Assembly (NCBI RefSeq): GCF_028307215.1 | Contig: NZ_JAQMHV010000001.1 | Span: 682,001 to 746,000 of the forward strand | Source of the DNA: Falsirhodobacter sp. 20TX0035 | GTDB taxonomy: Bacteria; Pseudomonadota; Alphaproteobacteria; Rhodobacterales; Rhodobacteraceae | Length of the DNA stretch: 64,000 bases | Direction of reading: 5' to 3' | In this document: piece after piece, positions 50,971 through 59,272 of the stretch | Numbering within the stretch: position 1 is the first letter of the stretch | Layout of the letters: each line of letters begins with the position of its first letter | Translations under genes and position numbers: made by a program | Notes under the pieces: model-generated | What the model was told of the DNA's origin: nothing | Databases searched by the model: none | Seen by the model: the letters and a program-made list of their open reading frames with translations, nothing else

Positions 50971-51001
50971 ACGCCGCGCCCTTGGGCGCGGCGTTTTATT
51001 T
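50971..51001 (+). terminator. Intrinsic terminator after grpE
   Basis: ACGCCGCGCCC/GGGCGCGGCGT, an 11-bp stem with a tight TT/CTTG loop, followed by TTTATTTT on the plus strand, 6 bp past the grpE stop. The distal part overlaps the convergent parB 3' end. Confidence 0.9.
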
Positions 51002-51886
51002 TCGAATGGCCGACAAGGCGCGACACAGATTGTCCAGATCGTCCAGCGTAGAGTAGCGGATCGACAGGACCCCACCCTCCCCACCCGCCAGATGATCGAT
51101 CTGCACTTCCATCCCCAGATTGATGCTCAGATCCGTCTCCAGCGAACGCGTGTCGGCATCCTTGGCCCCGGCCTTGGCGATGCGGGTGCGTTCGCTGCGG
51201 TCCGCCTTGCCCTTTGCCAGACGTTCCGTTTCGCGCACGGACAGCCCACGGTCCACGACCTGACGGGCCAGTGCCGAGGCGTTGTCACTGGTGATGAGGG
51301 CACGGGCATGACCCGCCGAAATCTGCCCTTCCCGCAACAGTGCCTGCACATCTTCAGGAAGATTAAGCAATCTCAACAAGTTGGCGATATGGGGACGGCT
51401 TTTGGACAGGGCTTCGGCCAGTTTTTCCTGCGTGTGGCCGAACCGGTCCATGAGCTGGCGGAAGCCCATGGCCTCCTCGATCGGGTTCAGGTCCGCGCGC
51501 TGGATGTTTTCGATAATCGCGACTTCAAGAACTTCGGTATCGTCGAAATCCCGGACCACAACCGGCACGTCGTGAAGCTGTGCCATCTGAGACGCGCGCC
51601 ACCGACGCTCTCCCGCCACGATCTCATACCGGTCTGTCCCCTCAAGCGGACGGACGATCAGGGGCTGGATCACCCCCTTCTGCCGGATCGACGAGGCGAG
51701 ATCCGCCAGCCCTTCCGACGAAAACTCGCGCCGTGGCTGGTTCGGGTTCGGGACGATCTTTTCAATCGGAAGCGTCATGTCCGCACGCCGAGGCGCGGTT
51801 TCCGAGGGCGCGGAAACATTGATATCCGCCATCAGGGCCGACAGGCCGCGTCCCAACCCACGCCGTTCGGGCTTGCGATCCATCAT
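50996..51886 (-). CDS. parB: Chromosome partitioning protein ParB
   Basis: 296 residues. Binds parS and spreads to form the partition complex. RGLGRGLSALM at the start, CTPase domain with VPNPNQPRREF and GERRWRASQM, helix-turn-helix around GHTQEKLAEALSKSRPHIANLLRLL, and a C-terminal dimer domain ending LDDLDNLCRAL. The ATG overlaps the parA stop (ATGA). Two perfect parS sites lie 1.4 and 3.2 kb upstream. Confidence 0.97.
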   Translation of the reverse strand: MMDRKPERRGLGRGLSALMADINVSAPSETAPRRADMTLPIEKIVPNPNQPRREFSSEGLADLASSIRQKGVIQPLIVRPLEGTDRYEIVAGERRWRASQMAQLHDVPVVVRDFDDTEVLEVAIIENIQRADLNPIEEAMGFRQLMDRFGHTQEKLAEALSKSRPHIANLLRLLNLPEDVQALLREGQISAGHARALITSDNASALARQVVDRGLSVRETERLAKGKADRSERTRIAKAGAKDADTRSLETDLSINLGMEVQIDHLAGGEGGVLSIRYSTLDDLDNLCRALSAIRK

Positions 51887-52677
51887 GCGCTCCTCCTCAT
51901 GGGGGTGCGGTGGGAGGCCGTCATTTCCGCCACCAGCGCCCGATACGCCTCGCTGCCCTTGGAAGAGGAGTCATAGGCCAAGACGGGAACGGAGAAGGAA
52001 GGCGCCTCGCTGACCCGCACATTGCGGGGAATGATCGTGGCGAAAACGAGTTCGCCGAGCGTTTGCCGCGCATCGTTTTCGACCAGTTGCGACAGGTTGT
52101 TGCGCTTGTCGTACATCGTCAACACCACCCCTTCGATGCGCAGCGAGGGGTTTGCCGTCTGGCGAACCTCGCGCACCGTCAGCATCAGCTGTGACAACCC
52201 TTCAAGGGCGAAGAACTCCGCCTGCAGAGGAACAAGCACCGAGTCCGCAGCCACGAGGGCGTTGATGGTCAGCAGGTTCAGCGACGGCGGGCAGTCGATC
52301 AGAATGTAATCGTAGCCGCTGTCGATGTCCTTCAAGGCGTCCTGCAGCAGGAAGGTCCGCCGCTCGTTCGACAGCAACTCCATGTCGGCAGAGGATAAGT
52401 CCGCATTTGCCGGACAGATGTGCAGCCTGTCGAAGGCCGTTGGCCGGGCGATCTCTGCCAGAGGCATCTGTTCGACAAGAAGATCGTATGTGGTAAGGCT
52501 CCGCGCTTCCGGCTCGATCCCCAGCCCCGTGGACGCGTTTCCCTGCGGATCCAGATCGATCAGCAGCGTCTTGCTGCCCTTTTCCGCCAAGGCGGCAGCC
52601 ACGTTGATCGCGGTCGTCGTCTTACCCACCCCACCCTTCTGGTTGGCAATGGCGATGATCCGGGTGTTTTCAGACAT
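51883..52677 (-). CDS. parA: Chromosome partitioning ATPase ParA
   Basis: 264 residues. Deviant Walker A KGGVGKTTT (IIAIANQKGGVGKTTTAINVA), Walker A' DLDPQGNAS and Walker B DYILIDCPPS are intact. The ATG at 52677 is chosen ([13 protein letters not shown]); a longer start would add eight residues. It begins 8 bp inside the rsmG 3' end. Forms parA-parB with a 4-bp overlap. ParA dimers on the nucleoid pull ParB/parS complexes to segregate origins. Confidence 0.97.
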   Translation of the reverse strand: MSENTRIIAIANQKGGVGKTTTAINVAAALAEKGSKTLLIDLDPQGNASTGLGIEPEARSLTTYDLLVEQMPLAEIARPTAFDRLHICPANADLSSADMELLSNERRTFLLQDALKDIDSGYDYILIDCPPSLNLLTINALVAADSVLVPLQAEFFALEGLSQLMLTVREVRQTANPSLRIEGVVLTMYDKRNNLSQLVENDARQTLGELVFATIIPRNVRVSEAPSFSVPVLAYDSSSKGSEAYRALVAEMTASHRTPMRRSA

Positions 52678-53266
52678 GAAACAGCTTTCCGACTTCCACA
52701 ATCACGCCTTCGGAATCGGTTCGACTGGGATGAACAACATGGTCAAATTGCCATGTCTTTCTGGCGTCCGCAATCTCTTCCATGTGACGGACGCCCTTTG
52801 GGAACAGGGCGATGCCTGTCTTCGAACGATGAAGTTGAGTGAAACCAAGAAGTGCGGGAAGTGCCGTCAAAGCTCGCGCAGACAGCACATCCGCCCCTAG
52901 CGGGGGAACCGCTTCGATCCGCGCATTTACCACCTGAGCGTTCAGCTTATGACGGCTTATCATTTCACGCAAAAAGACGCATTTGCGTTGATCCGACTCC
53001 ACCATGGTGACAACACGATCCGGATCGTGCTCCTTAGCCATGATAGCGATCACCAGGCCGGGAAGCCCCCCACCACTCCCTAAGTCCACCCAAGTTTTGC
53101 CTCGGCCGCCAAGCTTGTAAAGCTGCACCGAGTCCGCGACGTGCCGCTGCCAGATGTCCCTCTCGGACGCTTTGGCAATCAGGTTTATCTTCTGCGTCCA
53201 CTTCAACAGCGAGGCAACGTAATCCTCAAGAAGAAGGTGTGTTTCACGTGAAACATCATCCAGCAC
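52670..53266 (-). CDS. rsmG: 16S rRNA (guanine-N7) methyltransferase RsmG
   Basis: 198 residues. Methylates G527 of 16S rRNA (E. coli numbering). SAM-binding motif [17 protein letters not shown]-terminal [27 protein letters not shown], and LFPKGV-like ([13 protein letters not shown]). GTG start at 53266 overlaps the mnmG end by 11 bp. Codons for VSRET (residues 5-9) form a perfect parS palindrome. Base composition is visibly less GC-rich than neighbours. Confidence 0.95.
53240..53255. promoter_or_regulatory. parS site 1
   Basis: Perfect 16-bp palindrome TGTTTCACGTGAAACA, the ParB target in alphaproteobacteria. It lies inside the rsmG coding sequence (residues 4-9) just past its start and 1.4 kb from parB. 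Confidence 0.95.
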
Positions 53267-55127
53267 GTTTCACACCGTCCCGCTTAATCCGCGCCAAGAT
53301 CAGGATAAGCGCGGCCGGCGTCATCCCTTCAATCTGCTTTGCCGCTGCGATGGTAGCAGGCTTATTGCACACGAGCTTTACTACAAGCTCGTTTGAAAGA
53401 CCAGAGATCGACCGGAAGTCGATATCGCTCGGGATCGCCACAGCCTCATCGCGTTGAAGAGCATCGGCGGCCACCTTTTGACGATCCGTATACTGCGCGT
53501 AGACCGCGTCCGTGATGATCTGTTGGCGTATATCCTCAGGCAGCGACGCGAAGGTTGGGGCTAGATCGTCAAGGACGCCTCTTGCCACTCCATCGATAGC
53601 CAAGACCGCCAGACCACTGCGACGTACGCCGTCCTTGCTGATCTTGACTCCGCGCGCTTGAAGTTCCGTCGGCGTAAGCTGAAGGGCGTCAAGGTCGGCC
53701 CTCCCCGCTTCCACGAGCTCCATCTTCCGGTGGTAGGCATGCGCCCTGCCCTCATGAACCAGGCCCAGATCAATACCTGATTGCGTAAGACGTTGGTCCG
53801 CATTGTCCGCCCGAAGCGACAGCCGGAATTCCGCTCGGGAGGTGAACATGCGGTAAGGCTCGGTCACGCCTCGGCTGATCAGGTCCGACGTCATCACACC
53901 AAGATAGCTGTCCGTCCGGCTGAAGGTCTTCGGGCCCCTTCCCTGCACCCGCAGGGCCGCGTTCAACCCCGCAATCACGCCCTGTGCTCCGGCTTCTTCA
54001 TACCCGGTTGTGCCGTTGATCTGACCGGCCATCCAGAAGTTCTGAATGGCACGCAGTTCCAGCGTGTCAGTCAAACCGCGAGGATCAAAGAAGTCATACT
54101 CGATCGCGTATCCGGGCTGGGTGATCTTGACGTTCTCCAACCCGACGATCGTCCGAACGTAGTCTTCCTGAACCTCAGCCGGGAGAGATGTGGAAATGCC
54201 GTTCGGATAAACGGTCGTGTCGTCCAGACCTTCCGGCTCCAGGAAGATTTGATGGGAGTCTTTTTCAGCGAACCGGACGATCTTGTCCTCGATCGAGGGG
54301 CAATAACGCGGTCCTACCCCCTCAATATGTCCGCCATACATGGCCGAACGGGAAAGGTTCGCGCGAACAACCTCGTGCGTTTTCTCGTTGGTATGGGTCA
54401 CGCCGCAGGATACCTGCCGCACTGCAGGGACGCTCGACAGGAAGGACAGCATCACCGGATGTTCATCACCCGCCTGGTGTTCAAGACGATCCCAATTGAT
54501 GGAACGGCCATCCAGACGCGGCGGAGTCCCCGTCTTGAGGCGCCCCCTTTGAAGTCCCAAGTCACCCAGTTGATGCGCCAGACGTACCGACGGCCGGTCG
54601 CCCATGCGCCCGCCGACGTGGCGCTTGTCGCCAATATGGATCACGCCATTCAGGAACGTGCCCGATGTCAGCACCACAGCATCGGCATGAATTTGCACAT
54701 CTCCGGCAAGCTCAACGCCGTAAACCTTCTGATCCTTCACAAGAAGGCCAACAACTTCTCCGGCAAGAAGGTCCAGGTTCTGGGTTGCCTTGAGTGCATC
54801 CTGTACGGCCAACCGGTACAACTTCCGGTCCGCCTGAATACGCGGGCCTTGAACCGCTGCACCTTTTCGGCGGTTCAGCAGGCGATATTGAATGCCAGCC
54901 AAGTCCCCCGCCCGCCCCATGATGCCATCCAAGGCATCGATCTCTCGAACCAGATGCCCCTTACCCAATCCACCGATAGCCGGGTTGCAGGACATCACGC
55001 CGATCTTGTCCGTGTCCAAACTGATCAGCAAAGTTCTAGAACCAAGGCGTGCGGAGGCCGCAGCCGCTTCAACACCCGCATGCCCGCCACCAATCACGAT
55101 CACCGCATAATGTTTCACGTGAAACAC
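53256..55127 (-). CDS. mnmG: tRNA uridine 5-carboxymethylaminomethyl modification enzyme MnmG
   Basis: 623 residues. FAD enzyme working with MnmE to modify U34 of certain tRNAs. FAD fold [44 protein letters not shown], tRNA-binding [17 protein letters not shown]-terminal [19 protein letters not shown] start at 55127 directly follows the mnmE TAG, and codons 1-6 (MFHVKH) contain the second parS palindrome. Lower GC than neighbours. Confidence 0.98.
55111..55126. promoter_or_regulatory. parS site 2
   Basis: Second perfect TGTTTCACGTGAAACA, 1.87 kb from the first. It spans codons 1-6 of mnmG, ending one base inside the GTG start codon, and immediately follows the mnmE stop. Confidence 0.95.
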
Positions 55128-57824: not shown

Positions 57825-58262
57825 CTAGAACCGCACGATCACGGACACCACGATCAGGACCATCAGCAGCGTCGGCACCTCGTTCATGATGCGGTAGGTC
57901 CGGCCCGACAGGCGGTTCGTGCCGCGTTCGAAATCCTTGCGCCGGGCGGCCAGCCAGCCGTGAAACCCGCTCATCGCCAGAACGCCCGCGGCCTTGGTCC
58001 AGGGCCAGACCTGCGACCAGTCCACCACCCCCGGCGTGAACACCAGCGCCAGCCCGAAGACCCAGGTGGCGATCATCGCCGGGTTGATGATGGCCCGCAG
58101 CAGCCGGCGCTCCATCGTCTGGAACAGTGCCTCCGGCACCTCGTTCTCCGCGTGATAGACGTAAAGCCTCGGCAGATAGAACAGGCCCGCCATCCAGGCG
58201 ATGACGGCGATCACGTGAAACGCCTTGATCCACGGATAGGCGTTGGTCAGCAGGTCGGACAT
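57825..58262 (-). CDS. hemJ: HemJ-type protoporphyrinogen IX oxidase
   Basis: 145 residues, four predicted membrane helices, with conserved H16 (AFHVIAVIAWMAGLFYLPRLYVYH) and the ERRLLRAIINPAMIATW and WLAARRKDFERG segments typical of HemJ (DUF/UPF0093). Oxidises protoporphyrinogen IX in the late heme pathway. First gene leftward from the origin region. The hemE gene often found beside it in relatives is not here. Confidence 0.92.
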   Translation of the reverse strand: MSDLLTNAYPWIKAFHVIAVIAWMAGLFYLPRLYVYHAENEVPEALFQTMERRLLRAIINPAMIATWVFGLALVFTPGVVDWSQVWPWTKAAGVLAMSGFHGWLAARRKDFERGTNRLSGRTYRIMNEVPTLLMVLIVVSVIVRF

Positions 58263-58678
58263 GACCTCTCCTCTTTTAAAAGAAGAGTTATAAGAAGAAG
58301 AAAGATGATGATGTAAGGGGTGTGGATATCTGAATCATGGATATTCCTCACAACGCTTTTGCACAAGGCGCGGCCTGTGGATGACATCATGGGCGACTCA
58401 GTTTCGAATTGTACCAATCTTGCCGAATAGACCCAGTAAACAAGGGCGTTTCACCACTTGTCAGCACTGTGGATAAGTTTGTGAGTCTTCATGAAGGAAT
58501 CGCGAATATCCCCGATTCGCTCCCAAGCCGTTCTGCATCTTCCACAGGTGGATAAGTTCGGGCCGAATCTTGACACTGGAAGCCGTTCTGCCCATCCCTG
58601 CGTCAAGGGAAATTTTCCCGGAACCGACCCTCGTGATTCGACCCCGATTCCTCCACAGATTCGCCCCGGCCCCTGAAC
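58263..58678. other. Probable chromosomal replication origin (oriC)
   Basis: 416-bp gap between hemJ and maf, more AT-rich than surroundings. An AT/purine-rich stretch (58272-58315, including CTTTTAAAAG) lies at the hemJ side, as expected of an unwinding element. DnaA-type boxes: TGTGGATAA 58468-58476 (perfect), GGTGGATAA 58547-58555, TGTGGATAT 58321-58329, TGTGGATGA 58376-58384, plus weaker TCTTCCACA 58538 and TCCTCCACA near 58648. Nine GANTC sites fall between 58332 and 58662. Position next to hemJ/rho/par genes agrees with alphaproteobacterial origins. Function not shown. Confidence 0.85.
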
Positions 58679-59272
58679 ATGCGCCTTATTCTTGCCACAT
58701 CTTCCGAATCACGCCGCCAGATGATGGCGAAAGCGGGGCTGGTCGCAGAAGCGATTCCCGCCCGCATCGACGAGGAGGCCGTTCGCGCCTCGCTGGACGC
58801 CGAAGGCGCCAAACCCCGCGACGTGGCCGACACCCTGGCCGAGATGAAGGCCCGCAAGATCGCGGAACGCCACCCCGACGCCATCGTCATCGGCGGGGAC
58901 CAGGTGCTGGTGTTCGACGGGCGCATTCACGGCAAGCCCGACACGCCGGATCAGGCGCGCGACCAGCTGCGGTCGATGCGTGGCCAAACACACCAGCTTC
59001 TGTCGGCCGTGGTGGTGTATGAGGAGGCGCGGCCCGTCTGGCGTCACGTAGCCGAGGCGCGGATGGTCATGCGCCCCTTTTCCGACGCTTGGTTGGACGG
59101 TTATCTTCAGCGCAACTGGGACAGCGTCCGCCATTCCGCGGGCGCCTACAAACTGGAGGAGGAAGGCGTGCGCCTGTTCACCGAAGTCAAGGGCGACTGG
59201 TTCACCGTGATGGGCCTTCCCCTGCTGCCGCTTCTGGCCTGGCTGGGAAACCGGGGATTCATCGATGGCTGA
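58679..59272 (+). CDS. maf: Maf-family nucleoside triphosphate pyrophosphatase
   Basis: 197 residues. Maf/YceF house-cleaning pyrophosphatase acting on modified or UTP/dTTP-type nucleotides. N-terminal [18 protein letters not shown] (SxSxxR), central [23 protein letters not shown], and [38 protein letters not shown]. First gene rightward of the origin; its end overlaps aroE by 8 bp. Subtype specificity uncertain. Confidence 0.92.

Follow-up and report, generated by a model that had tools for sequence, protein, structure and literature searches.

GANTC arrays in the putative chromosomal origin of Falsirhodobacter sp. 20TX0035 and other Rhodobacteraceae: candidate platforms for CcrM methylation

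Introduction

Does the dense cluster of GANTC sites between hemJ and maf in Falsirhodobacter sp. 20TX0035 lie within the chromosomal origin of replication, and could methylation of these sites by CcrM alter the firing of that origin? The oriC of E. coli has GATC sites, served by Dam and SeqA, and the origin of Caulobacter has TTAA-N7-TTAA CtrA-type sites.

Several GANTC motifs are present in the Caulobacter origin, GANTC sites near that origin stay hemimethylated longest, cells with excess CcrM accumulate extra chromosomes and cells without ccrM control initiation normally (relevant passages of PMC3973325). Caulobacter CcrM is active only in predivisional cells, whereas Dam is active throughout the cycle, and repABC origins have been described as GANTC-rich (both in excerpts of PMC6090056). 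For ori2 of Agrobacterium a Dam/SeqA-like hemimethylation model has already been proposed (in the part of PMC11514494 cited here), and a rise in GANTC around ori, seen in bins of 1% of the chromosome, has been described for four alphaproteobacterial orders including Rhodobacterales (excerpt of PMC9836097). No report of GANTC arrays within the oriC of Rhodobacteraceae, or of their recurrence or conservation, was found in a literature search that covered mostly titles and the openings of abstracts.

A dense cluster of GANTC sites in the hemJ-maf intergenic region

The window, which is the whole 64,000 bp stretch of DNA analysed here, includes the genes for the protoporphyrinogen oxidase HemJ (UPF0093; hemJ, 57825–58262, minus strand) and a maf-like nucleotide pyrophosphatase (maf, 58679–59272, plus strand), both identified by sequence match. 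The 416 bp intergenic region that separates them (58263–58678), the proposed oriC, has a GC content of 50% compared with 67% in the window. All nine GANTC sites that the original prediction had placed in this gap were recovered, namely GAATC at 58332–58336 (site 1), GACTC at 58395–58399 (site 2), GAGTC at 58483–58487 (site 3), GAATC at 58497–58501 (site 4), GATTC at 58514–58518 (site 5), GAATC at 58565–58569 (site 6) and a triple, GATTC-N6-GATTC-N7-GATTC, at 58635–58662 (sites 7–9, starting at 58635, 58646 and 58658 and thus spaced 11 + 12 bp). The tenth predicted site lies within maf at 58706–58710, and the site count of the window added one more in maf, at 58753–58757, that had been overlooked.

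The chance rate of one site per 256 bp assumed in the original prediction is wrong for this genome. The window contains 62 sites in 64,000 bp, compared with 276 expected from dinucleotide shuffles of the window, and a density check over 319,033 bp of contig C11 found 310 sites, or 0.97 per kb. The cluster is therefore more extreme relative to the genome than had been claimed. The hemJ-maf locus was the densest 420 bp window in the 319 kb of contig scanned, with 10 GANTC, and the runner-up had 4. Measured against its own AT-richer makeup the cluster is less extreme, and base composition accounts for part of it: shuffles of the gap that kept its own dinucleotides gave a mean of 2.9 GANTC and reached nine or more in 6 of 5000 cases, so that the enrichment is approximately 22-fold against the contig rate and approximately 3-fold against the composition of the gap. 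Shuffle tests of this kind, drawn from the gaps' own letters, are conservative. Among the 16 gapped palindromes of the form NNxNN, GANTC was the one that most exceeded its window rate within the gap (9 versus 0.4).

The intergenic region is very probably oriC

The sites had been placed in a putative oriC, and the assignment is supported: the hemJ-maf gap is very probably oriC, judging from its DnaA boxes, its AT-rich flank, the nearby parS sites, and a switch in GC skew and in the strand of GGGNAGGG in a sister species. For the DnaA box, parS and CtrA site we searched with what we take to be the consensus words. Four DnaA boxes with no more than one mismatch, all on the minus strand, were found in the 416 bp gap versus three elsewhere in the 64 kb window. 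One of them, at 58468–58476, is a perfect TTATCCACA, of which the genome has six copies, and the others, ATATCCACA at 58321–58329, TCATCCACA at 58376–58384 and TTATCCACC at 58547–58555, have a single mismatch. The AT-richest 60 bp of the gap (58272–58331, GC 32%) is a candidate unwinding element. A GATGAT..GTAGG run beside the AT-rich flank (58263–58320) is conserved across the gaps of the family and could be part of such an element. CtrA-type TTAA-N7-TTAA sites, scored as full sites with no more than one mismatch, were absent from the gap, and two were present in the window, at 238 and 4504.

Two perfect parS-type sites (TGTTTCACGTGAAACA, 53240–53255 and 55111–55126) lie to the left of the gap, at 5.0 and 3.1 kb, and beyond them, as seen from the gap, are parA and parB on the minus strand. 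The parB gene (50996–51886) was identified by sequence match, and the coordinates of parA (51883–52701) are those of the longest open frame, of which a 264-aa form (51883–52677) was scanned. Each parS site (53240 and 55111) overlaps the opening codons of an open frame, so a Par binding site is read here as N-terminal codons. These frames are presumably rsmG- and mnmG-like, as recognised by eye.

The genome of the window (G000) is assembled in 54 contigs and its skew is weak and without a clear switch, and a sister species (G001) was therefore sampled, using 40 samples of 10 kb along its 2.28 Mb contig, where maf is at 1.868 Mb. GC skew was positive in 4 of the 20 samples between 0.72 and 1.84 Mb and negative in 2 of the 19 that start at 1.89 Mb and wrap to 0.67 Mb, and the maf sample was positive. 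Between 0.72 and 1.81 Mb (19 samples) GGGNAGGG was counted 4 times on the plus strand and 42 times on the minus strand; on the 19-sample arc that wraps from 1.89 to 0.67 Mb the corresponding counts were 44 and 2. There is thus an origin-type switch within approximately 60 kb of maf, a resolution coarser than the gap itself, and the opposite switch lies near 0.70 Mb, about half of the contig away from maf. The maf sample also had the highest local GANTC count, with 8 in 420 bp compared with 5 or fewer in each of the other 39.

A hemJ match beside maf was absent (tblastn) in nine of 84 family loci (L007, L011, L022, L041, L050, L065, L066, L069 and L076), and some genera may accordingly have a different left border of the origin; hemJ was found upstream of maf in all eight GANTC-rich genera checked. 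The features used to locate oriC in this family include DnaA boxes, a GC-disparity minimum, a local GC minimum and nearness to parAB (in the part of PMC6699656 cited here), and the hemJ-maf locus fits those of them that were tested.

CcrM and GcrA are encoded in the genome

The original prediction named CcrM as the enzyme that methylates GANTC, and a ccrM gene is indeed present (C11:527252–528349, minus strand), as the sole PF01555 match of the genome. Its product has N6_N4_Mtase and RAMA domains and matches the solved Caulobacter CcrM structure 6pbd over residues 16–365 of 366 (E 9.9e-171), and its NCBIfam CcrM score is 645.7 bits, under the cut-off of 830. GcrA is encoded at C50:79790–80341, with a PF07750 score of 161 bits versus a cut-off of 26.9 and an NCBIfam GcrA score of 157.1 bits, under the cut-off of 280. 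SeqA (PF03925) was not found in this genome, in a search for which only E. coli was positive among 14 control genomes. All 25 genomes tested encode CcrM, GANTC-rich and GANTC-poor origins alike, which rules out the presence of CcrM as the cause of the difference between them. A perfect TTATCCACA, another of the six in the genome, lies at C11:528388–528396, 38 bp past the 5′ end of the ccrM match, and a role of DnaA at the ccrM promoter is therefore conceivable.

GANTC enrichment in Falsirhodobacter and recurrence in other genera

The 420 bp before maf contain 9, 7, 8, 4, 3, 4 and 6 GANTC in the seven Falsirhodobacter genomes, a total of 41 versus 15.4 expected from gap shuffles (n=7). The excess was clear in four of the seven (P <=0.04) and P values for the remaining three (G003, G004 and G006, with 3–4 sites) were 0.10–0.17. 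These seven form one clade in a quick tree of 84 loci (SH-aLRT 100), and loci within one genus are not independent. The 68 other family loci contained 79 GANTC versus 119.6 expected from gap shuffles. This comparison used the 84 loci minus the nine with no hemJ match, one of which is the rich L007; L028 is outside the 84.

One genome from each of 80 further genera was also examined. The set combined the 60 with the most similar maf and 20 chosen manually, out of 181 other genomes with a match, and it partly repeats the named family loci. Seventy of the 80 have 0–3 GANTC before maf, and 53 have none or one. The rich genera were represented by G104 (14 sites), G040 (11), G047 (8), G202 (7) and G023 (7), for which 1.9–3.5 are expected per locus, and three more have 5. 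The total for the 80 genera was 141 versus 148.5 expected, and 150 versus 152.3 over 81 genera (ratio 0.99). GANTC was the most over-dispersed of the 16 gapped palindromes over the 81 loci, with a dispersion of 2.22 and four loci at P <=0.005 versus 0.4 expected. ATNAT was second (1.90, two loci at P <=0.005), and this word may belong to the unwinding element.

The GC content was below 58% in 71 of the 80 upstream stretches and at least one strict DnaA-box-like word was present in 61. The upstream stretch of the rich G023 has no strict DnaA-box-like word and a GC content of 59%. A further locus, that of Xinfangfangia sp. CPCC 101601 (L007), has 6 GANTC and no hemJ match; it comes from a count of named loci that left out L028, L034 and L001–L003, the last three not being oriC loci. 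When rich (six or more sites) and poor states were placed on a quick tree of 118 rows with a weak backbone, from which L028, L034 and L080 were left out, at least seven state changes were needed, or eight at a cut of 5.

Conservation of the GANTC sites

Conservation was followed in Falsirhodobacter and in two other rich lineages, chosen for their richness. The genus of G104 (g99, eight genomes) has 11–14 sites in every member, compared with 0.1–0.5 per 420 bp in the flanks. Of its 19 GANTC columns, nine show no variation among the eight species. The same holds for 1 of 76 columns of the other 15 palindromes (Fisher 7e-7) and for 97 of 1300 columns of 255 other gapped control words. The conserved sites span approximately 290 bp (−320 to −28). 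For sites present in at least half of the rows, pair identity at the four fixed bases was 97%, compared with 74% for the rest; selecting columns by this criterion raises the former figure. The middle base is nearly constant (98%), so freedom of N cannot be read from this genus.

The second lineage (g35, four genomes with 8–11 sites) kept 9 of 15 GANTC columns in a majority of its members versus 10 of 45 palindrome control columns (P 0.009), and the pair identity of the fixed bases, 77%, was little above the 71% of the rest. The Falsirhodobacter genomes kept 4 of 19 GANTC columns in a majority versus 2 of 98 controls (P 0.006), the other 15 of 19 not being majority-kept, and invariance in all seven was not above that of the controls (1 of 19 versus 0 of 98, P 0.16). 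Site 9, the nearest to maf, is kept in all seven, with T as the middle base in three and G in four. Site 1 is kept in five of seven, site 4 reads GACTC in the sister species (G001) in the same alignment columns, and site 6 is shared with that species. Over 77 sites in 10 rich loci the middle base was A in 23, C in 20, G in 19 and T in 15, and the use of all four is what a target defined as GANTC itself would predict. The conservation pattern is the one that selection for a CcrM target would predict, strongly in g99 and modestly elsewhere. Together, the enrichment, the recurrence and the conservation of columns indicate that selected GANTC arrays recur at Rhodobacteraceae oriC.

Arrangement of the GANTC sites

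The GANTC sites of the rich loci were no nearer to TCCACA cores than expected by chance, with 8 versus 9.7 expected at 1 bp or less and 19 versus 21.0 at 10 bp or less. Overlaps of GANTC with DnaA boxes do occur, as GATTC-CTCCACA-GATTC and as TTATCCACA-GAGTC in G003, G006 and G040. They were at chance level in the 10 rich loci and so overlap was not retained as a general feature. The rich loci showed no sign of phasing with the 10.5 bp helical repeat (P 0.50). GANTC gaps of 9–14 bp (15 versus 8.0, P 0.006) and of 21–30 bp (15 versus 9.6, P 0.04) were in excess, in bins that were picked post hoc.

The triple formed by sites 7–9 surrounds a maf-proximal TCCACA element. This TTATCCACA-like element (58646–58657), just before the start of maf, was seen by eye in many of the 84 loci. 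It reads TCCTCCACA with GATTC at its left in five of the seven Falsirhodobacter and is a perfect box in G003 and G006. The maf-proximal 20-mers (58635–58654) of Falsirhodobacter, GATTCGACCCCGATTCCTCC, and of g99, GATTCGATCCCGATTCCTCC (six of eight species; loci L232–L238), are one base apart. The two lineages are far apart in the tree, yet both have three GANTC spaced 11 + 12 bp. A degenerate search for the 20-mer in 394 genomes found four that match, G000 and G004 (both Falsirhodobacter, at oriC), G123, where the match is in a different contig from maf, and G330. It missed G104, the one genome of the sample recognised as g99, in which the spacer is one base shorter. With 4 of 394 genomes matching, a wider element behind the shared 20-mer was unsupported. 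A TTGAC word directly after site 6, together with a CC-rich block downstream (58570–58599, TTGAC ... CCCAT.CCT), is kept in all seven Falsirhodobacter and is possibly the maf promoter.

Discussion

The reading that we favour, with a probability of roughly 0.55, is that the hemJ-maf gap is the chromosomal origin and that the GANTC array is a selected platform of CcrM targets whose methylation state would alter firing. It builds on the array and the oriC features, the ccrM and gcrA genes, the enrichment in the genus, the recurrence elsewhere and the preferential conservation of GANTC, all of them observed. CcrM would methylate both strands of the array late in the cell cycle, as in Caulobacter. 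Departure of the fork would leave all sites of the array hemimethylated at once, and their location at the origin would keep them longest in that state. Until CcrM restored full methylation, firing of the origin would then be altered by a protein that reads the methylated or hemimethylated array, or by m6A acting directly on DnaA or on strand opening. GcrA is the only candidate reader that was looked for and found.

Control of re-initiation by the array is plausible, and modulation of firing by the methylation state of oriC after fork passage, as proposed in the original prediction, appears to be its most likely role. The very probable oriC, the ccrM gene and the enriched, preferentially conserved sites are in line with that proposal. 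Two observations speak against a general rule: Caulobacter without ccrM controls initiation normally, and 70 of the 80 genera have 0–3 sites. Genera that encode CcrM and have few origin sites are the majority, so the array is not needed. Whether CcrM controls the start of chromosome replication in Alphaproteobacteria has been put to the test in Caulobacter, where, in the passages cited above, its methylation proved unnecessary for control of initiation.

The main rival, which we consider unlikely, assigns the GANTC sites to control of the hemJ and maf promoters by CcrM and GcrA and takes their location in oriC as incidental. The gap does separate divergent genes, GcrA is encoded in the genome, the TTGAC word conserved throughout the genus adjoins site 6, the triple lies 21–44 bp before maf, and promoters controlled by GcrA and CcrM are established in Caulobacter (in the part of PMC8116508 cited here). 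However, the conserved sites of g99 extend over approximately 290 bp, beyond what a single promoter would be expected to require, no other 420 bp stretch in 319 kb of the Falsirhodobacter genome exceeds 4 GANTC, and 53 of the 80 other genera have no more than one site before maf. An array that marks the origin for a role other than timing, such as origin segregation or repair, through methylation-dependent binding seems highly improbable, since no test result points to it specifically and the two parS sites have no such array, even though parS and parAB are within 8 kb.

The array might also have arisen by relaxed avoidance and composition, if coding DNA is purged of GANTC and an AT-rich, non-coding origin drifts up. 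Across Alphaproteobacteria, GANTC is scarcer than expected in the genome as a whole and over-represented between genes (again in the excerpts of PMC3973325), the window is likewise depleted, shuffled gaps already lead one to expect about three sites, and the total over 81 genera equals the expectation. The spread between genera is nevertheless too wide for drift, with 14, 11, 8, 7 and 7 sites in genera where 1.9–3.5 are expected, and sites are kept while spacers change. The column-invariance test weakens this explanation further, and we regard it as quite improbable.

Compared with known systems, the Falsirhodobacter locus is like the oriC of E. coli in that target sites of an orphan adenine methyltransferase are crowded into the origin at far more than the background density, and differs in that the target is GANTC, the enzyme is CcrM and SeqA was not found in the genome. 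It resembles Caulobacter crescentus as an alphaproteobacterial origin with several GANTC in a genome with CcrM. Unlike that origin, the gap has no TTAA-N7-TTAA CtrA-type site at one mismatch or fewer, and it has nine GANTC, with 11–14 in g99. The ori2 and repABC replicons of Agrobacterium tumefaciens also have GANTC in and near the origin, but, in the source excerpts cited above, ori2 is RepC-dependent with three GANTC, whereas the Falsirhodobacter gap is very probably a DnaA-type chromosomal origin. The rise in GANTC near ori, as given in the cited excerpt of PMC9836097, is on the scale of 1% bins, whereas the array described here is within oriC, recurs by genus and is conserved.

A more far-reaching version, possible but on balance doubtful, is that several lineages of Rhodobacteraceae independently evolved a Dam/SeqA-like, CcrM-based origin licence, in which a putative reader of hemimethylated arrays would delay re-initiation. 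If this were true, g99, with 11–14 sites, nine of them invariant in eight species, would be the most developed case. Origins with up to 14 CcrM sites beside those of related genera with none provide a natural comparison that makes the initiation question directly testable, and would point towards a new reader protein for hemimethylated GANTC.
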